Shown here in pieces: positions 7,748 through 31,356 of a stretch of DNA of 40,060 nt. Location: positions 1-40,060 of the forward strand of contig PLTV01000376.1 of assembly GCA_003164635.1 (NCBI GenBank). Direction: 5' to 3'. The notes beneath the pieces were generated by a model. The model had not been told where the DNA came from. It did not search any database and saw nothing but the letters and a program-made list of their open reading frames with translations. The stretch's first letter is position 1; each line of letters begins with the position of its first letter. The stretch comes from Acidobacteriaceae bacterium. Its GTDB lineage: Bacteria > Acidobacteriota > Terriglobia > Terriglobales > Acidobacteriaceae. Both the position numbers and the translations under genes were made by a program.

Positions 7748-8458
7748 CTAGTTTCTCATCCATTCGGGAAGTCCCGATGCAATGGCCTGACGAACAGCGT
7801 GCATCAGCTCTTCGCGCGTAACGAACTGCGTGGGATCGATGGGTGGATGAAAGACGACATACGCGGCGCCGGGATGCATTTTCAGGCTGCCTTTCCCGAG
7901 AATCTTTTCCGTCCCATGGATGGAGACCGGGATGCACGGTGCGCCGGCCTGCATCGCCAGATAAAACGGTCCCTTCTTGAATGGCAGCATGCGGCCATCC
8001 GGTGAGCGTGTTCCTTCAACAAAACTGGTAATGTGCAAGCCTTTCTCAAGCACAAGCTGGGCGGCGGAGACACTGGCGCGTGCCTCGGCTGCGTTGCCCG
8101 AACGGTCAACGGCGATGAACTCGCCCATGCGGAATCCCATCCCGAGCACGGGCAGGTTCATCAGCGAGCGTTTCATGAAGGCCGAGGTGCGGCCGGGAAT
8201 CAGCGAGACAAGTGCAGGCGGGTCGAGATTGGAGACGTGGTTCGACATGAAAATACACGATCGGCCGGCAGGCACGTTCTCCAGTCCGGAAAGTTGAAAG
8301 CGCACACCGGAAAGCCTGCAACTGCTCGCCAGCATGAAACGGGTTCCTTTGTAGAGCGGATTTGCGTTGCCCGTAACCCACGCCCAGGGAATGAAGAGAA
8401 CGGCCGTCGGAATCCCGGTGACAACCATGGTGGCGAGAAAAATGAGTGAAGCGATCAT
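7748..8458 (-). CDS. plsC: 1-acyl-sn-glycerol-3-phosphate acyltransferase, copy 2
   Basis: The second PlsC paralogue, also 236 residues, with NHVSNLD at 73-79 and FVEGTRS at 146-152. Differences from copy 1 concentrate in the N-terminal anchor and in 101-140, while 141-180 and the C-terminal IASGLPEWMR are nearly identical. That pattern suggests a change in acyl-chain or acceptor preference rather than loss of function. Its ATG overlaps the mpl stop codon (ATGA), so it is translationally coupled to mpl and belongs to the operon. No clear Shine-Dalgarno sequence precedes it, which fits coupling. The reaction is acylation of lysophosphatidate or a similar lysolipid at the inner membrane. Confidence 0.88.
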   Translation of the reverse strand: MIASLIFLATMVVTGIPTAVLFIPWAWVTGNANPLYKGTRFMLASSCRLSGVRFQLSGLENVPAGRSCIFMSNHVSNLDPPALVSLIPGRTSAFMKRSLMNLPVLGMGFRMGEFIAVDRSGNAAEARASVSAAQLVLEKGLHITSFVEGTRSPDGRMLPFKKGPFYLAMQAGAPCIPVSIHGTEKILGKGSLKMHPGAAYVVFHPPIDPTQFVTREELMHAVRQAIASGLPEWMRN

Positions 8459-9912
8459 GGAAGCGGTTGCCCGCAGTCCTCACCGGCAAAGCGCTGTTCG
8501 AGAGCCGCGGGAAGTTTCTCATAAATATTATCGAAGGCGCCATTGGAGAGCAGAACAACAACGTCGCCGGGTCGAAGCTCCGGCACAATGGCCGTTATGA
8601 TGGCGTCTCCGCCGGCGTGGAGTTCGGCTTGCGCGCCGTGCTGGCGCAGAGATTTAATTACGTCTTCGGGATGCAACCGCTCGGCGTCCGGAATGCGTTG
8701 CTGCTGATATACGCCCGAGAGAACGATGCGATCGGCCAGGCAAAGGCTCTCCACGAGATCGGCCTGCAGAACCTTGCGTCGAAGCGTGTTCGAGCGCGGC
8801 TCAAGGACAGCCCAGAGGCGCGCATCTGGATAGACCGCACGCAGCGCGCGCAACGTCTCGCGGATAGCGGTGGGGTGGTGGGCGAAGTCGTCAATCAGGG
8901 TGATGCCGTTCACGACGGCGCGGACTTCAAGCCGGCGTTTCACGCTCTTGAACCCGGCCAGGGCGGCGCGAATGGGTTCTTGTGGAATGCCGCAGCCAAA
9001 GGCCAGTGCGGCCGCGGCTGTCGCATTCAGTGCGTTATGCTCGCCGGCAAGTGCCATTTCGAGTTCGGACCAGAGCGCGCCCGCGCGCCAGACCTCCCAT
9101 CGAGTAAGGCCGCCTTCGTGGCGCAGGTTGCGAATTTTCCAGTCCGCCGAGTCTGAGAACCCGTAACGCTCGACGCGGCAAAGCGCGGGTTGAAGGCAGT
9201 CGGAAACATTCGTGCTCCCATCAAAGGCCACGATCAATCCTCGCCGTGGCACGAGGTTCACGAGGCGTTTGAAGGCGGTCTTGACGGCGTTTAGATCCGC
9301 GTAGATGTCGGCATGGTCGAATTCGACGTGAGTCAGGATAAGTGCGTCGGGAAAGTAATGAAGAAACTTCGGGCCCTTGTCAAAGAAGGCTGTATCGTAC
9401 TCGTCGCCTTCGAGAATGAAGGTGCGCGTCGGGCGCAGCTGAAAGCTGCTCCGGAAGTTTTCCGCGACTCCACCAATCAGAAACGATGGCTCCTGGATCG
9501 AGCTTCCTGGTGCTGCGGATTGAGCAGCGAACTGGTAGATCCACGCGAGCATGCTTGTCGTGGTGGTTTTGCCGTGCGTGCCGGCCACGACAAGAGACTC
9601 GCGGCCGATCAGAAACTCTTCGTGCAGCAGGGCCGCCATCGAGGTGAACGCAATACGCTGGTCGAGGATGCGCTCGATTTCCGGGTTGCCGCGCGAGAGT
9701 GCGTTCCCAATGACGACGAGGTCGGGGCGCGGATCCAGGTTGGACTCCGCGTAGGGTTCGAGGATGGGAATGCCCAGAGAGCGAAGCAGATTGCTCATCG
9801 GCGGGTAAGCGGCGTTGTCTGAACCGGTGATGCGATGGCCCTGCAGCTGGAGAAGACCGGCAAGCGAGGCCATGGCGGTGCCGCAGATGCCGCTGAGGTG
9901 AATGTGCTTCAT
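8455..9912 (-). CDS. mpl: UDP-MurNAc:L-Ala-D-Glu-meso-DAP ligase (murein peptide ligase)
   Basis: A Mur-ligase family protein of 485 residues. The N-terminal GICGTAMASLAGLL and TGSDNAAYPPMS blocks are of Mpl rather than MurC type, and the ATP P-loop is GTHGKTTT (111-118). The central domain has the EGDEYDTAFFDKGPKF signature and the C-terminal domain has the DDFAHHPTAI block. Mpl attaches the recycled tripeptide L-Ala-gamma-D-Glu-meso-DAP to UDP-MurNAc, which bypasses MurC, MurD and MurE in wall recycling. The upstream neighbour is an LD-carboxypeptidase, which makes that tripeptide from the tetrapeptide, so the two are functionally coherent. The gene starts 131 nt after ldcA, and a hairpin lies in this leader. 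Length and motifs look intact. Confidence 0.93.
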   Translation of the reverse strand: MKHIHLSGICGTAMASLAGLLQLQGHRITGSDNAAYPPMSNLLRSLGIPILEPYAESNLDPRPDLVVIGNALSRGNPEIERILDQRIAFTSMAALLHEEFLIGRESLVVAGTHGKTTTTSMLAWIYQFAAQSAAPGSSIQEPSFLIGGVAENFRSSFQLRPTRTFILEGDEYDTAFFDKGPKFLHYFPDALILTHVEFDHADIYADLNAVKTAFKRLVNLVPRRGLIVAFDGSTNVSDCLQPALCRVERYGFSDSADWKIRNLRHEGGLTRWEVWRAGALWSELEMALAGEHNALNATAAAALAFGCGIPQEPIRAALAGFKSVKRRLEVRAVVNGITLIDDFAHHPTAIRETLRALRAVYPDARLWAVLEPRSNTLRRKVLQADLVESLCLADRIVLSGVYQQQRIPDAERLHPEDVIKSLRQHGAQAELHAGGDAIITAIVPELRPGDVVVLLSNGAFDNIYEKLPAALEQRFAGEDCGQPLP

Positions 9913-10043: not shown

Positions 10044-10997
10044 TCACGGGCCGGAGTCCAGGAGCTGCTTTTCCACGGCCGGCTGCAGCAGATTGAGTTG
10101 CGCTTGATTAGCAGCGTGAAGTTCGGCTTCGACGCCGAAGGTGAGAGTGACGTTGGAGTGGGAGACGTGGCCACTGCGTAGGCCGATGGCGATGGGTCCG
10201 GCGAAATTATCGAAGACGCGCAGGATGACCTCGTCCAGTAGCTCCGGCGCAGCGCCGGGCGAAGTGCAATCCAGCATTTCGCCAAAGATTATCCCGCGTA
10301 CATCATCCAGTTTGCCTGCTTGCTGAAGCTGCCAGAGCATGCGGTCGATCTGGTAAGGCTTGGCGCTAACATCTTCAAGGAAGAGAAGCTTGCCCTCGGT
10401 CTGTGGCTCATAGGGAGTGCCCAGCAGCGAGACGAGAATCGACAGGCATCCACCATAGAGGATGCCGCGGGCACGGCCTGGATGCAGGGTGCGGAGACCC
10501 TCGTCGTGGCCAACCGCATAGGGGTTACCGGCCAAAGCTGCCTGCAAGCTGTGCAGATGAACACCGTCTTCGCGTGAGAAGTCCGCGGAGATCATGGGAC
10601 CGTAAAAAGCCGGAAGCTGTATCTGGTCGAGGAGCCAAAGCTGGGGGGCAGTGAGGTCGCTGAAGCCGATGAAAGGTTTCGCGCTCTCCGAGATCAAGTC
10701 CAGGTCGAGGCCCTCAAGCAGGTAGTTGGAGCCGTAGCCGCCACGTGTGGCGAAGATGGCGCGCACGTCGTCGTCGGCGAAAGCATGGTGCAGATCGCGC
10801 AGGCGCATCTCCGGCGTTCCCGCAAAATAAAGCGGGCCGCGGGTGAGCAGCGAGTCCGAGGGCTGAGGGGTGTAACCGAGCGTGCGGAGCGCCTCCAATC
10901 CGAGATCGACCAGGTCTGGCTTTGGGGTAGACGCCGGCGAAACCACGGCGACAAGTGCGTCGGGGGCAACAGCAGGCGGCTTCAGCAGCGTCGCCAT
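10044..10997 (-). CDS. ldcA: LD-carboxypeptidase (peptidase family S66)
   Basis: A 317-residue S66 peptidase. The N-terminal VSPAS block, the TRGGYGSNYLL stretch and the nucleophile motif GFSD (Ser113) are typical, with Glu208 in FLEDV and a histidine in SGHVSH (His277) completing the Ser-Glu-His triad of the family. There is no signal peptide, so it is cytoplasmic. LdcA removes the terminal D-Ala from recycled murein tetrapeptide to give the tripeptide used by Mpl, whose gene is next downstream. MccF, which cleaves microcin C, is in the same family; the neighbourhood favours the recycling role. Its ATG overlaps the stop of the DapF-like gene by one base (TGATG), showing coupling. Confidence 0.9.
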   Translation of the reverse strand: MATLLKPPAVAPDALVAVVSPASTPKPDLVDLGLEALRTLGYTPQPSDSLLTRGPLYFAGTPEMRLRDLHHAFADDDVRAIFATRGGYGSNYLLEGLDLDLISESAKPFIGFSDLTAPQLWLLDQIQLPAFYGPMISADFSREDGVHLHSLQAALAGNPYAVGHDEGLRTLHPGRARGILYGGCLSILVSLLGTPYEPQTEGKLLFLEDVSAKPYQIDRMLWQLQQAGKLDDVRGIIFGEMLDCTSPGAAPELLDEVILRVFDNFAGPIAIGLRSGHVSHSNVTLTFGVEAELHAANQAQLNLLQPAVEKQLLDSGP

Positions 10998-11818
10998 CAG
11001 AGAAACGCCTCGCCGCGGGAGATCAGGGTAGCTGGCCCGGTGAGCAGAAGCTCGGCGCCCGCGCCCTCCCAGGCCACGGTTTGTGCTCCGCCGGGAGCCA
11101 GCACCGTCAGCGGTGACAGGCAGCCCATAAAGGAGCGCGCCGCGGTTGCGGCAGCGGAGCTTCCCGTACCCGAAGAGGTTGTGGGGCCCACGCCGCGCTC
11201 GAAGATGCGGATCTCAATCTCCTCGGGGTTGAGAATATGCACAAACTCCACGTTGGTTTGGTGTGGAAACTCGGCGTGGTTGTATATCTCGGCGCCGATT
11301 GTCTGCCAGGCGCGCCCTGCGACCTCAAAGTCACCGTTCCCGACGAAGACCACAAAGTGGGGATTCCCGGTCTGCACTTCGATGCCGACGATGTGAAGTC
11401 CGCCGCCCAGATTGATGGTGCGCGGCGCGTAAACAGGGACGCCCATGCCAGTTGTGATTTCCACCTTGAACTCGCCGGTTGAACTCATCGTGTTAATGAG
11501 GCAGAGCCGTGGACCCGCGTCGGTGGCCACTTCGAGCACTTCGCCCGGCTGCGCGCCAAGCGCATGCGCCATCCAGGCGGCAACGCAGCGGGTGCCGTTG
11601 CCGCTGATTTCGGCGATCGATCCGTCGGCATTGTTCAGCCAGATGCGGCCCGACTTTGGGCCCGTCCAGGCGAAAAACTCAATGCCGTCGGCCCCGATGC
11701 CTGTGGTGCGCGAACACAAACGGCGCGCCAGGTCGGCCCAGTTGTGGCCGTTGGCATCCTCCTCCGTGACGATCAGGAAATCATTGCCGCAGGCATGCGC
11801 CTTGACGAAAGGAATCAA
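10997..11818 (-). CDS. dapF: DapF-family protein with both catalytic cysteines replaced by serine
   Basis: A diaminopimelate epimerase homologue, 273 residues, the normal family size with two mirror domains. The GNDF block (11-14), NNADGS (62-67), GNPHF (Asn152), TNVEF (Asn189) and ERGVG (Glu207, Arg208) are all kept; these hold the substrate. The two acid/base cysteines are not: the usual CGNG is SGNG with Ser72, and the usual ACGTG is SSGTG with Ser216. I rechecked both codons, AGC and TCG. DapF normally interconverts LL- and meso-DAP by a two-cysteine proton swap, so this protein may be inactive, slow, or act on a different substrate. The TTG start has GGAGG 4 nt upstream and overlaps the mgtC stop (TTGA). 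The symbol names the family, not a proven activity. Confidence 0.8.
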   Translation of the reverse strand: MIPFVKAHACGNDFLIVTEEDANGHNWADLARRLCSRTTGIGADGIEFFAWTGPKSGRIWLNNADGSIAEISGNGTRCVAAWMAHALGAQPGEVLEVATDAGPRLCLINTMSSTGEFKVEITTGMGVPVYAPRTINLGGGLHIVGIEVQTGNPHFVVFVGNGDFEVAGRAWQTIGAEIYNHAEFPHQTNVEFVHILNPEEIEIRIFERGVGPTTSSGTGSSAAATAARSFMGCLSPLTVLAPGGAQTVAWEGAGAELLLTGPATLISRGEAFL

Positions 11819-12534
11819 TCGTCCTCCAAATCGCGGAAGGTGTACAAGTGCTCGATGCCGGCCCCGGAGTTCAACGAGTTGTAGAGGCGCTCATGTTGGC
11901 GTCGTGTCGCGGCGAGCGGAAAACTCACGCGCCTGATTTCGCCGATGGCGTCGGTCTCAATGTCGGTGAGGCGATTGCCCGTGGCGTCCATGGCCGCCAG
12001 AATGGACTCAAGCATCCGCGTCTGGTCGCGACCGCGAACCTCGTAGGTCACCGGATACGCCTTCAGGTTGGCGCGCTGCTCGAGCAATCCAACAACGGTA
12101 AGGGAAAGAATGACGATGATCGCGCCTACCGTGGCCGCCGCGTAAAGGCCCGCTCCGCAGGCCATCCCCACCGAGGCGACAACCCAAATGCTGGCGGCGC
12201 TGGCCAGCCCGCTTACCCGGCTGCGGTTGTGCAGAATCAACCCGGCGCCCAGAAATCCAATCCCCTGGACGATATTTGAGGCAACCTGGCCCTTGTTGGA
12301 TCCGGCACTCCCCGCAAGCACCCCGGAGAGAAGGGTGAAAAAGGCGCTACCGACGCAGATGAGCAGGTTGGTGCGGACGCCGGCCGATTTGCGTTGGATT
12401 TCACGCTCTAGCCCGATCAAACCGCCGAGCAGGCCGGCCATCAAAAGACGCCCGATCGCTCCGGTCATCACCGTGTTCTGCTCAAACTGGCTGAATTGGA
12501 ACGGGTCCGCGATGTGTGAAAGCGCCGCTGTCAT
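11815..12534 (-). CDS. MgtC/SapB family membrane protein
   Basis: A 239-residue protein. The N-terminal half is the MgtC domain with about five hydrophobic helices; conserved stretches are GGLIGLEREIQRKSAGVRTN, the QGIGFLGAGLI block and the ASIWVVASVGMACGAG segment. The soluble C-terminal tail (about 165-239) resembles the ACT-like regulatory domain of MgtC proteins. In pathogens MgtC supports growth at low magnesium and inhibits the F1Fo ATPase; in free-living bacteria the role is unclear. The ATG has AAGGA upstream. It overlaps both neighbours by 4 nt, so it is embedded in the operon and not under a separate magnesium-responsive leader. Confidence 0.9.
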   Translation of the reverse strand: MTAALSHIADPFQFSQFEQNTVMTGAIGRLLMAGLLGGLIGLEREIQRKSAGVRTNLLICVGSAFFTLLSGVLAGSAGSNKGQVASNIVQGIGFLGAGLILHNRSRVSGLASAASIWVVASVGMACGAGLYAAATVGAIIVILSLTVVGLLEQRANLKAYPVTYEVRGRDQTRMLESILAAMDATGNRLTDIETDAIGEIRRVSFPLAATRRQHERLYNSLNSGAGIEHLYTFRDLEDD

Positions 12535-14213
12535 TGGGTTTCCTTGAGCGATGCTACCACCGCGCGGCGGGGGGTGTAGATGGTAGTTGCCCCGGAAGTA
12601 TCGGACACGTAAAGCGTAACGGACGGTTGAAACGCAGCGGAAAAGCGGCGATACACGGTGAGCCCGTCTGGATGTTCGTGCACCGCTCGATCGATCTCAT
12701 CTCCGTCGTAGGCCAGAACCAGTGCTGCGCGAGCCGCCGGCGCGTTGAGCGCATCGCGATAGATTCCCAGGTCGCTTTCGTTGATCGTCTGGCGAAGCGG
12801 AATCCCAGTAAAGGCGACGATCTCGGGATCGTACGAAGTGTCCATCAGAAGAACACCGCCGGGCCTCTCAGCCAAAAGCCGGCGCAGCACGGGCGGAATC
12901 TCCAGTTGGTACGGTCGATGCGCTTCAATGTTCCTTTCGCCTTCCACATACACCGCTGGACCTTCTTTGATCATTTCAACCGCATTGACTGCGAGCAGAG
13001 CAAACAGCAACAGCGCCGTGGCGTTCTCCCAGTTCGCCCTGCGCCCGTAGCGTTTGAAGTCGCGCACCGCGCCAAGACAGGGATGAGCGGCAAAACCGAT
13101 GGCCAGCGCAAAGGCCGGCAGCAACTCGAGCCCGTAGCGCAGGTTGTAATAGGAGTGCGGCCACCACACAGGAAGAAAGATGGGAACCGACCCATAGGCG
13201 ACGGAGTACGCATAGAAGGGAACTGGCAGCAGGAGTGGAAGGGTCCACGCGATGCCGCGGCGGCGATTGGCCAGAAATGCAATCAAGATGCCCGCGACCG
13301 CTATAAGCAGCAGCAATGTTCCCCACTTGCCTGCTGCCAAGTCCATCTCCGCAGTCTTGATATAGAAAATCAAACTCACCCAGAGGTTGTGCCATCCGGG
13401 GTGGGGCGGGAAGCCGGGAGTCGCAGTTCGGGCCTCAATCGCGGCCGCCGAATAGGGTCCGCGGATGAAAAAAAGCCAGTCGTCAAAGGCTGCAGAGTTG
13501 TAGAGAAACCAGGCGATGGGCGCGGCTGCGACAAAAACGCTCGCGACCCAGTACGAACGGATGCGAAGCAGCCCGCGGCGCGCGAGGGTCATGCCGATAG
13601 CTACCCACGCCAGAAAGGCCATGACCCAGCCGTCATAGCGCGTGAACACCGCGGCAACCAGGACAAAGGCGATAGGCCAAAGAAGGCGGTGGCCCTGAGG
13701 AGGATCGAGATCGAGGCCGGAACGCCACTCCACCAGCCAACAGGTCGTCCAGATCATCTCGCAGACGAACAACGGCTCCGTCATCGCGGTTGTCTGCAGG
13801 TAAAGCAAATTGGGGTTGGCAGCGAAGAAGACCAGCGCCAGAGCGGCCGGTATGGGTGGTATCCAGCGGCGAGCCAGTCGATAGATGCCCAGGCACGCCG
13901 CAATGTAAGCCAGTGCCGACGGCAAAATGCCCGCCGTTCCGCTTGCCCACCAATTGTATTTCTGCACTAAGGGTAGAAGCAGAATATGCGGCAGTGGCAG
14001 CCATACCGACCCAAGTTCAGAAAAGCGCGGCTGGTGCGAATCGAAGACACGCCGGGCGATATGGAGATGCGCCGCGGCATCCCCATAGTTCAGGAGCGCG
14101 CCATGACTCCAGCTCCATGCGATCGCGATGCCGGAAAGCGACACACTGAAAGCCAGCACCGCGAACAATTCCCCGGTCGAAAGCCCTCGGTGCCGGCCAG
14201 GTCGCTCAGTCAA
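12531..14213 (-). CDS. Polytopic membrane protein, probable GT39-like glycosyltransferase
   Basis: A 560-residue protein with about ten hydrophobic helices (first at about 13-33) and short polar loops. The first external loop has GDAAAHLHIARR and then LPLPHILLLPL, and a later loop reads QTTAMTEPLF. An acidic residue in the first loop and this order are typical of GT-C enzymes of family 39 / ArnT type, which use polyprenyl-phosphate sugars on the periplasmic side. The C-terminal part (about 430-560) is soluble. Acceptor and sugar cannot be told. The start is TTG at 14213, inside the end of the upstream PfkB gene (8-nt overlap). No good ribosome site is seen there, which suggests coupling. The confidence is in the membrane-protein call; the glycosyltransferase assignment is about 0.65. 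Confidence 0.75.
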   Translation of the reverse strand: MTERPGRHRGLSTGELFAVLAFSVSLSGIAIAWSWSHGALLNYGDAAAHLHIARRVFDSHQPRFSELGSVWLPLPHILLLPLVQKYNWWASGTAGILPSALAYIAACLGIYRLARRWIPPIPAALALVFFAANPNLLYLQTTAMTEPLFVCEMIWTTCWLVEWRSGLDLDPPQGHRLLWPIAFVLVAAVFTRYDGWVMAFLAWVAIGMTLARRGLLRIRSYWVASVFVAAAPIAWFLYNSAAFDDWLFFIRGPYSAAAIEARTATPGFPPHPGWHNLWVSLIFYIKTAEMDLAAGKWGTLLLLIAVAGILIAFLANRRRGIAWTLPLLLPVPFYAYSVAYGSVPIFLPVWWPHSYYNLRYGLELLPAFALAIGFAAHPCLGAVRDFKRYGRRANWENATALLLFALLAVNAVEMIKEGPAVYVEGERNIEAHRPYQLEIPPVLRRLLAERPGGVLLMDTSYDPEIVAFTGIPLRQTINESDLGIYRDALNAPAARAALVLAYDGDEIDRAVHEHPDGLTVYRRFSAAFQPSVTLYVSDTSGATTIYTPRRAVVASLKETQ

Positions 14214-28242: not shown

Positions 28243-28683
28243 TTTCAGGATATGGCGGAGAGCGAGGGATTCTCGGTCCTAGTTCAAAAAACCCTTTAGT
28301 TACTGCATAAAGCGTTCATGGTCATTCCGTTGTCATTCATTTGCGATTATCGCCATGGAGAGCAGAGCAGTCACCCTAATGATCCGATTCAAGGAATCAG
28401 ACGAGCAATGGCGCCGCAGGGCGGCCGATGCCGACGCTAACCGGGCTCGATTAGGGAGGACCTCAGCCGCGGTCGAGGCAGCCAAGGGCAAAACGGACAA
28501 TTCGCCTAACGTGGAATAGAATTTCCGTGTCCTGGTGAGGGCGTTGGCTCCCTGTTCGAATTGATTGCAGCGAGGACGATCGGCCGGCTGGGATAGGCCG
28601 CTTGGTGACGCAGGGCAAGTGATTGCCTGCCGCAGTCCGCTGTTTTCGACAATAGGATGATGCGCAAGTGTGGAGACAAACCA
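28243..28683. other. 441-nt intergenic region, poxB / VWFA-related gene
   Basis: A long gap by the standard of this window. It contains a 54-codon + strand frame at 28355-28519 (listed separately), and an A-rich stretch near 28287-28295. The ribosome site GGAG (28672-28675) belongs to the next gene. No strong terminator after poxB, no RNA gene and no direct repeats were seen. Open frames on the - strand here look like shadows. Confidence 0.4.
28355..28519 (+). pseudogene. Short ORF, possible remnant of a site-specific integrase N-terminus
   Basis: ATG to TAG gives 54 residues with MIRFKESDEQWRRRAADADA and then an ANRARL stretch, a pattern I associate with N-termini of tyrosine recombinases found in Acidobacteria (an RFK-D-W-RR stretch followed by AADA). 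The two parts seem joined by an internal deletion. There is no ribosome site and no catalytic domain follows. The identification is from memory of family wording and is weak; it could equally be chance or a small protein of its own. Confidence 0.25.
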
Positions 28684-31356
28684 ATGAGACGCAGAATCCT
28701 CTTCTTCCTTTTGGCAGCGGCTACGATCCCGGCAACGGCGGCAAAACGCGAGACTGTCGCCCAATTGGAACAGACGCTGACTGCGGCGTATGCGTTGCAT
28801 AAGCAGGATGCCGAGATCGCTCGGCAAATTAGCGGTATGGAACTTTCCGAGCGGCTCACACGGGACACTCTGCGGCGGTTCAGTTCGCCGATGGCGCCCA
28901 ACTCACAGGCTGTGCTTGCCCTGGAAGTCCTCGCGGATCAGTCGGAGTTTCTTGATCCGCCATCCGACGAATTGCCCCCCGTTGCCGCTCCCGATGCATC
29001 TGCTCAGCAGCGCATGCTCGAATCCGCACAGAGGTACGGAGCACAGGTGCTGCCCGGGCTTCCGAACTTTTTGGCCACCCGAACCATTAACCGCTACGAC
29101 GACAGTCCCCAGGAACTGAAGAAAGGCTCGTGGCCGGTTCGCGCCGGCCTTCACCGCGTTGACACTTCAAGCGGGGAGATCTCTGTACGCGACGAACGCG
29201 AGAATCAACCTCCCACGCAAGGGTCCGCCGTTTGGCAGCAGCAGATCGGACTGATTTCCGGAGGTGAGTTTGGCACCACGCTTGGCATGATCCTGGCAGA
29301 CACTCCCCGAGGCCAGATTAGCTGGAGCCACTGGGAACGGACTGCGGCGGGGCTGGTCGCAGTCTTCCAGTACTCGGTGCCCAAATCCGCCTCGCACTTC
29401 GAAATCATCAGCTCACTTCAGCGTCAGGCGGCCATCGAAGGCATCGCAACATCCACCGGGGGCTCGAGAGGCATTTCCGGCATCGGAGCACGGCCGAACA
29501 ACAATCCTTCCCGTACTTCGATGACCACCTCCAGGCCGGGCTACCACGGCTCGCTTTGGCTGGATCCGGTCACCGGGGCCGTTCTCCGCATTTCGATGGA
29601 AGCCGATTCGAAAGACATCTCCCCGTACCGTCGCGCCGCCATTCTTGCAGAGTATGGCCCGGTTCAAATTGGCGGCAGCCAGTTTATCTGCCCGTTGCGC
29701 AGCCTCGCGCTTTCCGATGCAGTGACCGACGCGTCGGATGTCATGAAAGACACGCCAACCCGCTGGTTGAACGTTACCCTCTTCACCGGATACCATCGCT
29801 TCGCATCGACAACTCGCATTGTGTCAGGCACGTCGGAAACGCAGTCGGGAGAGCCCGAGGGCGCAAGCGAAGTTTCCCGGATTACGCCGCCAGAGTCCAA
29901 TCAAACAGCATCCGCGACTGCGAAGCCATTGGCTCAAGCGGGTGTCTCTTCAGCGATCTCCACTGCGGCTTCCACTCCGGCTCCAGTAGATTCCACGCCA
30001 CCCGTTTCCACCGCAACGGAATCCAATTCCACACCGCCAGCTCAACCAATATCCTCTCCGAACGCATCCACCGCAGAAGGATCGACTCGAGCGGAGACCA
30101 TAGCACCCGTACCTGTTGCGAACCATACGGATGAGCCTCAGACCGATGCGCAGACCATTCAGGTGAATGTGAATCGCGTCCTGGTCCCGGTTGTCGTTCG
30201 GGACAAAAGCGGCCGCACGGTGAGCGGTTTGAGGAAGGAAGATTTCAAGTTATTCGACAACGACAAGGCGCGGTCAATCATTGGGTTCACCTTAGAGCAG
30301 CGTGGCGCCGAATCGAATGCAGCAGGCAACGCGTCGTGTCAAACACCGACACCGCCTTCCGTAAATGCAGCGCCGCAGAAGGGCGAGCAGCGCTACATCG
30401 TATTCCTCTTCGACGATCTCCATCTGGGCGCTGAGGATCTGGTCCGCGTAGGAAATGCCGGCACAAAGGTGCTTGATGACGCGTTGGGTGCCTCGGACAT
30501 CGCGGCTGTGCTCTCGCTATCCGGAAACACCAACAGCGGCCTCACCCGCGATCACGCAACCTTGCGCGAGGCCATCCTGAGCATGAAGCCACAGGCCACC
30601 TTTCGCCCCGATCCCCGTGCATGTCCGAACATCTCCTACTACCAGGCTGTGCAGATCGATAACGAACATAGCCACGACGGCCCGGCATTCAAGGATGCAT
30701 TGAATCAGGTCCTGGCTTGCAACCCGAGCGTGGATCCCAGTCAGCGGCATGTCAGCGAAAACGAGGTTGTCACGACCACAAATCGGGTTCTCAACCTGGG
30801 CCGTCTGGATGCCCAGGTCACCTACTCCAACATTGCCGAGTTTGTGCGTACCATAGGGACTTTGCCTGGTCAGCGCATGATCGTATTTGTGTCTTCAGGA
30901 TTCTCCGCTGTGGAACAAGAATCGATCGGCTTCGAATCGCGTGTCATGGATCTCGCGGCGCAGTTCAATGTCACTATCAGCGTTCTTGATGCCCGCGGGT
31001 TGTACGTCGGGGATATCTCCGCTGACGCAAGCCAGAGCGGCCCGATGACGACAGGAGCAAGCGTGCAGCAACAGTCGGATTACCAGCGCAGTTCGATGTT
31101 GAATGCCGACAGCACGATGGCCGCTCTTGCCGATGGCACCGGTGGCACTTTTTTTCACAACAGCAACGATTTAGGCGCCGGATTCAAGCGACTGACAGAG
31201 CCGCCGGAGGTTGTCTACGTCCTGGAGTTATCGCCCGACGGGGTCAAGCAGGACGGATCCTATCACCGCCTGAAGATCAAGGTGGATCGCCCCGGCGTCG
31301 ATATCCAGGCACGGCGGGGATACTTCATCCCCAAACCGGAAAAGAAGAAGAAATAG
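28684..31356 (+). CDS. Secreted two-module protein with acidobacterial VWFA-related domain
   Basis: An 890-residue exported protein from the ATG at 28684 (GGAG 8 nt upstream), with a signal peptide ending near residue 20. Module one (about 25-380) is an uncharacterised alpha/beta region with GLPNFLATRTINRYDD and a WLDPVTGAVLRISMEAD stretch. A Ser/Thr/Pro/Ala linker (about 385-490) follows. Module two (about 490-890) is the VWFA-related acidobacterial domain: VLVPVVVRDKSGRTVSGL, the KEDFKLFDN block, and a Rossmann-like core at 570-800. Its metal site is degenerate: DDLHL (577-581) replaces the DxSxS motif. The C-terminus reads RRGYFIPKP, typical of these proteins. Function is unknown; the linker and signal suggest a surface or periplasmic role. 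No partner is adjacent. Confidence 0.88.
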   Translation: MRRRILFFLLAAATIPATAAKRETVAQLEQTLTAAYALHKQDAEIARQISGMELSERLTRDTLRRFSSPMAPNSQAVLALEVLADQSEFLDPPSDELPPVAAPDASAQQRMLESAQRYGAQVLPGLPNFLATRTINRYDDSPQELKKGSWPVRAGLHRVDTSSGEISVRDERENQPPTQGSAVWQQQIGLISGGEFGTTLGMILADTPRGQISWSHWERTAAGLVAVFQYSVPKSASHFEIISSLQRQAAIEGIATSTGGSRGISGIGARPNNNPSRTSMTTSRPGYHGSLWLDPVTGAVLRISMEADSKDISPYRRAAILAEYGPVQIGGSQFICPLRSLALSDAVTDASDVMKDTPTRWLNVTLFTGYHRFASTTRIVSGTSETQSGEPEGASEVSRITPPESNQTASATAKPLAQAGVSSAISTAASTPAPVDSTPPVSTATESNSTPPAQPISSPNASTAEGSTRAETIAPVPVANHTDEPQTDAQTIQVNVNRVLVPVVVRDKSGRTVSGLRKEDFKLFDNDKARSIIGFTLEQRGAESNAAGNASCQTPTPPSVNAAPQKGEQRYIVFLFDDLHLGAEDLVRVGNAGTKVLDDALGASDIAAVLSLSGNTNSGLTRDHATLREAILSMKPQATFRPDPRACPNISYYQAVQIDNEHSHDGPAFKDALNQVLACNPSVDPSQRHVSENEVVTTTNRVLNLGRLDAQVTYSNIAEFVRTIGTLPGQRMIVFVSSGFSAVEQESIGFESRVMDLAAQFNVTISVLDARGLYVGDISADASQSGPMTTGASVQQQSDYQRSSMLNADSTMAALADGTGGTFFHNSNDLGAGFKRLTEPPEVVYVLELSPDGVKQDGSYHRLKIKVDRPGVDIQARRGYFIPKPEKKKK

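Follow-up and report, generated by a model that had tools for sequence, protein, structure and literature searches.

The window, a 40,060-nucleotide stretch of acidobacterial DNA, encodes a homologue of the diaminopimelate (DAP) epimerase DapF with serine in place of both catalytic cysteines, and our best explanation is that this protein would be a working, thiol-free DAP epimerase converting LL-DAP to meso-DAP with Ser72 and Ser216 as acid/base pair, a reading to which we give a probability of about 0.6 from genomic reasoning. Rather than an odd homologue in one genome, the protein represents a serine form of DapF distributed across the phylum, and this form probably works. DapF is a model case of an enzyme in which a thiolate-thiol pair takes a proton of pKa about 29. 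That an enzyme with two essential cysteines wherever it has been studied has two serines across much of a phylum means either thiol-free chemistry or an essential wall precursor made by an unknown route. If active, a conserved natural Ser/Ser DapF would reveal what else the active site requires, and it should be insensitive to the oxidation of thiols by which C. glutamicum DapF is inactivated (PMC5296763), and perhaps to Cys-alkylating inhibitors too. If inactive, a major soil phylum makes meso-DAP with an unknown enzyme; the result would be new either way.

The gene, its two serine codons and its neighbours are as follows.
8455-9912, minus strand: mpl, UDP-MurNAc:L-Ala-gamma-D-Glu-meso-DAP ligase (TIGR01081, 405 bits, above cut-off)
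10044-10997, minus strand: ldcA, LD-carboxypeptidase (S66 family); its start and the stop of dapF share 1 base
10997-11818, minus strand: dapF homologue, 273 amino acids, TTG start, with Ser72 and Ser216 where the catalytic Cys pair is expected
11171-11173, minus strand: Ser216 codon TCG (read 11173-11171), at the site of E. coli Cys217, motif TSSGTGS
11603-11605, minus strand: Ser72 codon AGC (read 11605-11603), at the site of E. coli Cys73, motif SGNGTRC
11815-12534, minus strand: gene for an MgtC-family membrane protein, overlapping the dapF start by 4 bases

The dapF product scores 177.3 bits against TIGR00652, above the curated cut-off of 114.65. The wall-gene setting described in the first-pass annotation was recovered, with ldcA and mpl downstream of the dapF homologue. 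Genes for a PfkB-family kinase, a 560-amino-acid protein, the MgtC-family protein, DapF and LdcA follow each other in a tight run of five in which neighbours overlap by 1 to 8 bases, and mpl comes after a short gap. The 560-amino-acid protein (12531-14213) has no Pfam match and its gene overlaps both flanking genes; a 561-amino-acid protein, also without a Pfam match, occupies the equivalent place in L236. Elsewhere in the window an 899-amino-acid open reading frame on the plus strand (28657-31356) is without a Pfam match at 1e-6. Upstream of dapF in two genomes of family f23 lies a gene for an S13 DD-carboxypeptidase. Beyond near relatives the neighbourhood of Ser/Ser dapF showed no link to DAP genes, and we rejected gene neighbourhood as proof of function because the order is not kept beyond near relatives.

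Alignment with DapFs of solved structure placed Ser72 and Ser216 on the catalytic cysteines and confirmed that Asn63, Asn152, Asn189, Glu207 and Arg208 are kept, as the first-pass annotation had read them, codons included. In 90 representatives sharing less than 70% identity, the counterparts of the DAP-binding residues of the E. coli enzyme (Asn64, Asn157, Asn190, Glu208 and Arg209) are invariant. The conserved columns of this set differ from five type-I Cys/Cys sequences at the two serines and one alanine only, and the latter, Ala81 (E. coli Arg82), was dropped as a signature of the serine clade because the Cys/Cys DapF of Anabaena shares it. No new residue able to serve as base was found among the conserved columns. 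The AlphaFold2 model (pLDDT 92.6, pTM 0.90) predicts the two-domain DapF fold, with helices 73-87 and 217-231 beginning right after Ser72 and Ser216, as in DapF. Its best structural matches are DapF and O-ureidoserine racemase chains (mostly Z 29-34, 28-35% identity), and the rest of the superfamily matches at Z 27 or less; the protein is thus not closer to proline racemase or hydroxyproline epimerase (Z of at most 27, 12-16% identity) than to DapF.

Restricted to Acidobacteriota, a tblastn survey found a relative in 288 of 297 genomes; among 41 near relatives, 34 had one. The first set fetched, made up of close matches and at least one sequence per distant family, was Ser/Ser throughout (139/139, the window's own gene being included three times). 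Genomes with a weak or no tblastn match were re-searched with TIGR00652, and 70 further DapF-like open reading frames were read. In all, 213 sequences were read, including six reference genes from outside the phylum; 147 were Ser/Ser, 60 Cys/Cys and 5 Cys/Ser, and one was a fragment. Setting aside L174, which belongs to another lineage, the comparison with other Acidobacteria proposed in the first-pass annotation shows the window's lineage to be Ser/Ser in 146 of 146 sequences from 42 family codes, a count that slightly overstates the number of independent sequences since a few species were drawn from both of two collections (L004 and L062 have identical sequences). The Cys/Cys type is present in 31 family codes. 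In three Ser/Ser DapFs of family code f29 (L187, L193 and L195) a serine also replaces the glycine that follows the second catalytic residue (SSTGS). No relatives were found in viral contigs, and a search of the open-access literature, with most subscription journals outside its reach, returned no publication on a serine-type or acidobacterial DapF.

Both serines appear to be held in place by selection. Among the 147 Ser/Ser sequences, Ser72 is encoded by TCN in 107 and by AGC in 40, and Ser216 by TCN in 135 and by AGY in 12. Using our own scripts and simple methods (parsimony and Nei-Gojobori), we counted at least nine switches between the TCN and AGY codon sets for Ser72 and at least three for Ser216 on the tree of the 146, and obtained a median dN/dS of 0.07 over 33 near pairs, indicating purifying selection. 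Each switch requires at least two base changes and, if stepwise, passes through Cys or Thr; serine was kept nonetheless. Only 15 columns are strictly invariant and both serines are among them, the other serines of the protein being 1-83% conserved.

In the tree the Ser/Ser proteins and the DapFs of E. coli, Legionella and Paenibacillus form one group (100%), separate from a second acidobacterial type; type I carries the motif ERGxG-xT and type II the motif ERGVExET. By descent, as judged from this sequence comparison, the Ser/Ser protein is placed with DapF, and since the Cys/Cys pair of DapF is replaced by Ser/Ser in every sequence read from its lineage it is not an ordinary member. Most type-II members are Cys/Cys; four are Cys/Ser (L142, L160, L176 and L180) and one is Ser/Ser (L174), a pattern suggesting that cysteine gave way to serine additional times, independently. 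When more type-I references were included, a second tree placed 35 of 37 Ser/Ser rows together (98%), and monophyly of all 37 was not rejected (p-AU 0.54); Ser/Ser may thus have arisen once within type I and separately in type II. As far as seen, each genome has type I or type II and not both, family f25 being the exception and some survey rows with two matches outside f25 being left unassigned. Both types occur in different genomes of family f30 (L102 and L103 versus L140) and of family f43 (L098 versus L158 and L172, all three from one genus code). Some f25 genomes have a Ser/Ser DapF (L141, L151 and L152) plus a divergent Cys/Cys relative. This divergent relative was read in L199-L208 except L205, and L203, the one scored, reached 88.8 bits, below the TIGR00652 cut-off. 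The alternation of Ser/Ser with Cys/Cys DapF between genomes suggests that the two have an equivalent function.

DapB, a DapD-like gene and LysA are encoded in Ser/Ser genomes of families f1, f5, f17, f23, f26 and f59, where the DapD-like gene, whose matches all fall below the curated cut-off of that model, often lies at most a few kb from DapB. DapB, the DapD-like gene and LysA all occur in the genome of the window, together with a DNPR-type MurE and one alanine racemase. The DNPR motif was read there and in nearly all other genomes whose MurE was examined. This motif generally marks a DAP-adding MurE, and LysA generally acts on meso-DAP. As a source of LL-DAP in family f1, DapL is not claimed, NCBIfam naming the best match alanine transaminase. 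The second dapF for which the first-pass annotation proposed to look, including one with Cys/Cys, was not found in the window's genome, which is fragmented and about 70% complete. A Ddh bypass was rejected, no Ddh scoring above cut-off in 45 genomes. Among the families searched, the Ser/Ser protein is thus the only epimerase candidate that we can see in the window's genome. LysA is present in nearly all Ser/Ser genomes; type-II genomes (Cys/Cys or Cys/Ser; G042, G046, G050, G103, G119, G150, G161 and G239) are mostly without a convincing LysA. Two genomes of one genus code, taken as Chloracidobacterium (G125 and G149), have a Ser/Ser DapF, a LysA above cut-off and a DNPR MurE, and gave no match to DapB or the DapD-like gene. 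Chloracidobacterium requires L-lysine (PMC4376005, PMC12816986). DapB is also without a match in several other Ser/Ser and Cys/Cys lineages; G083, G104, G167, G284, G060 and others have DapF and a DNPR-type MurE, many of them with LysA, and no detectable DapB. Such lineages may have a diverged DapB or a different role for DapF.

Common descent, the DapF fold of the model, serine sites placed before the two helices, a full DAP pocket, strict conservation of the serines and the lack of a second candidate together argue for a working epimerase. In the mechanism that we propose, LL-DAP would be enclosed by the two domains, the pKa of one serine would be lowered by helix dipoles and backbone amides, and this serine would take the alpha proton while the hydroxyl of the other gives one back from the opposite face. 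That a clade across much of Acidobacteriota epimerises DAP by a Ser/Ser pair, as the first cofactor-independent amino-acid epimerase of the superfamily without a thiol in its acid/base pair, seems to us a shade better than an even bet; to our knowledge no thiol-free pair was known before in these enzymes. Against a working epimerase stand the absence of a new base among the conserved columns, Chloracidobacterium without DapB, a neighbourhood not tied to DAP genes, and the near-dead Cys-to-Ser mutants of related thiol enzymes. Both thiols are needed in the known enzymes of this class: Cys-to-Ser PddB has <0.1% activity, the same level being reported for M. tuberculosis DapF (PMC8225329), and the activity of HisR mutants is greatly reduced (PMC11602996).

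The first-pass annotation had read the protein as a non-epimerising DAP binder, a slow enzyme or a dehydratase. Its residues, intact binding pocket and wall-gene setting stand; the functional reading fits less well with the sole DapF found in the genome, descent with canonical DapF, conservation under purifying selection, and alternation with a Cys/Cys lineage. A DAP binder, regulator or scaffold without useful epimerisation would leave meso-DAP to an unrelated, unrecognised epimerase. The near-inactive mutants (PMC8225329) speak for this, as does DapF2, a non-homologous PLP-type DAP epimerase proposed in other organisms (PMC9026213). A DapF2-like replacement is not apparent here, however, because the alanine-racemase-type gene is single as a rule: nearly all of 34 genomes have one, the exceptions being G143 and G215 with extra matches and G047 with none. 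Ser/Ser DapF moreover alternates, rather than coexists, with the Cys/Cys type, and binding does not obviously require two invariant serines at the catalytic sites; we regard such a binder as unlikely. That the pocket serves a different reaction, for example an elimination or a dehydration, or epimerises another diamino acid is improbable in our judgement. There are precedents: within the proline racemase superfamily a Ser/Thr protein is a dehydratase (PMC4113996), and a gene annotated as DapF turned out to encode a histidine racemase (PMC11602996). The gene is also kept in lineages without DapB; yet the DAP-binding residues of DapF are all invariant, and genomes with DapB, a DapD-like gene and LysA would be left without a visible epimerase. 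A misreading or misassembly of the two codons, which has nothing in its favour except the fragmentary and incomplete genome, is refuted by the presence of both serines, in different codons, in all 146 relatives from independent assemblies that include isolates.

The working epimerase that we favour can be set beside four known systems. Canonical DapF (TIGR00652; E. coli, H. influenzae, C. glutamicum, Anabaena and Arabidopsis) shares with it the family cut-off, the fold, the binding residues and the type-I place in the tree, but has catalytic Cys/Cys where every clade member read has Ser/Ser. Type-II acidobacterial DapF also matches TIGR00652, mostly above cut-off, and is present in place of the Ser/Ser type; it differs in its separate branch, in one extra residue ahead of the second catalytic site and in being mostly Cys/Cys. 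The H. influenzae DapF variants C73S and C217S (PDB 2q9h and 2q9j) have one serine each, in the same fold and the same place as in the window protein, but they are laboratory single mutants made for crystallisation, with catalysis hindered (PMC12039745), whereas both serines of the window protein are natural. Finally, the 4-hydroxyproline 2-epimerase with a natural Ser/Cys pair, in which serine is one of the two catalytic residues, and the Ser/Thr trans-3-hydroxyproline dehydratase (PMC4113996) belong to the same fold class and have a natural serine at one catalytic site; they differ in their other substrates, in a second residue that is Cys or Thr and in an identity of 12-16%. A Ser/Ser epimerase would be one step beyond the Ser/Cys 4-hydroxyproline epimerase.
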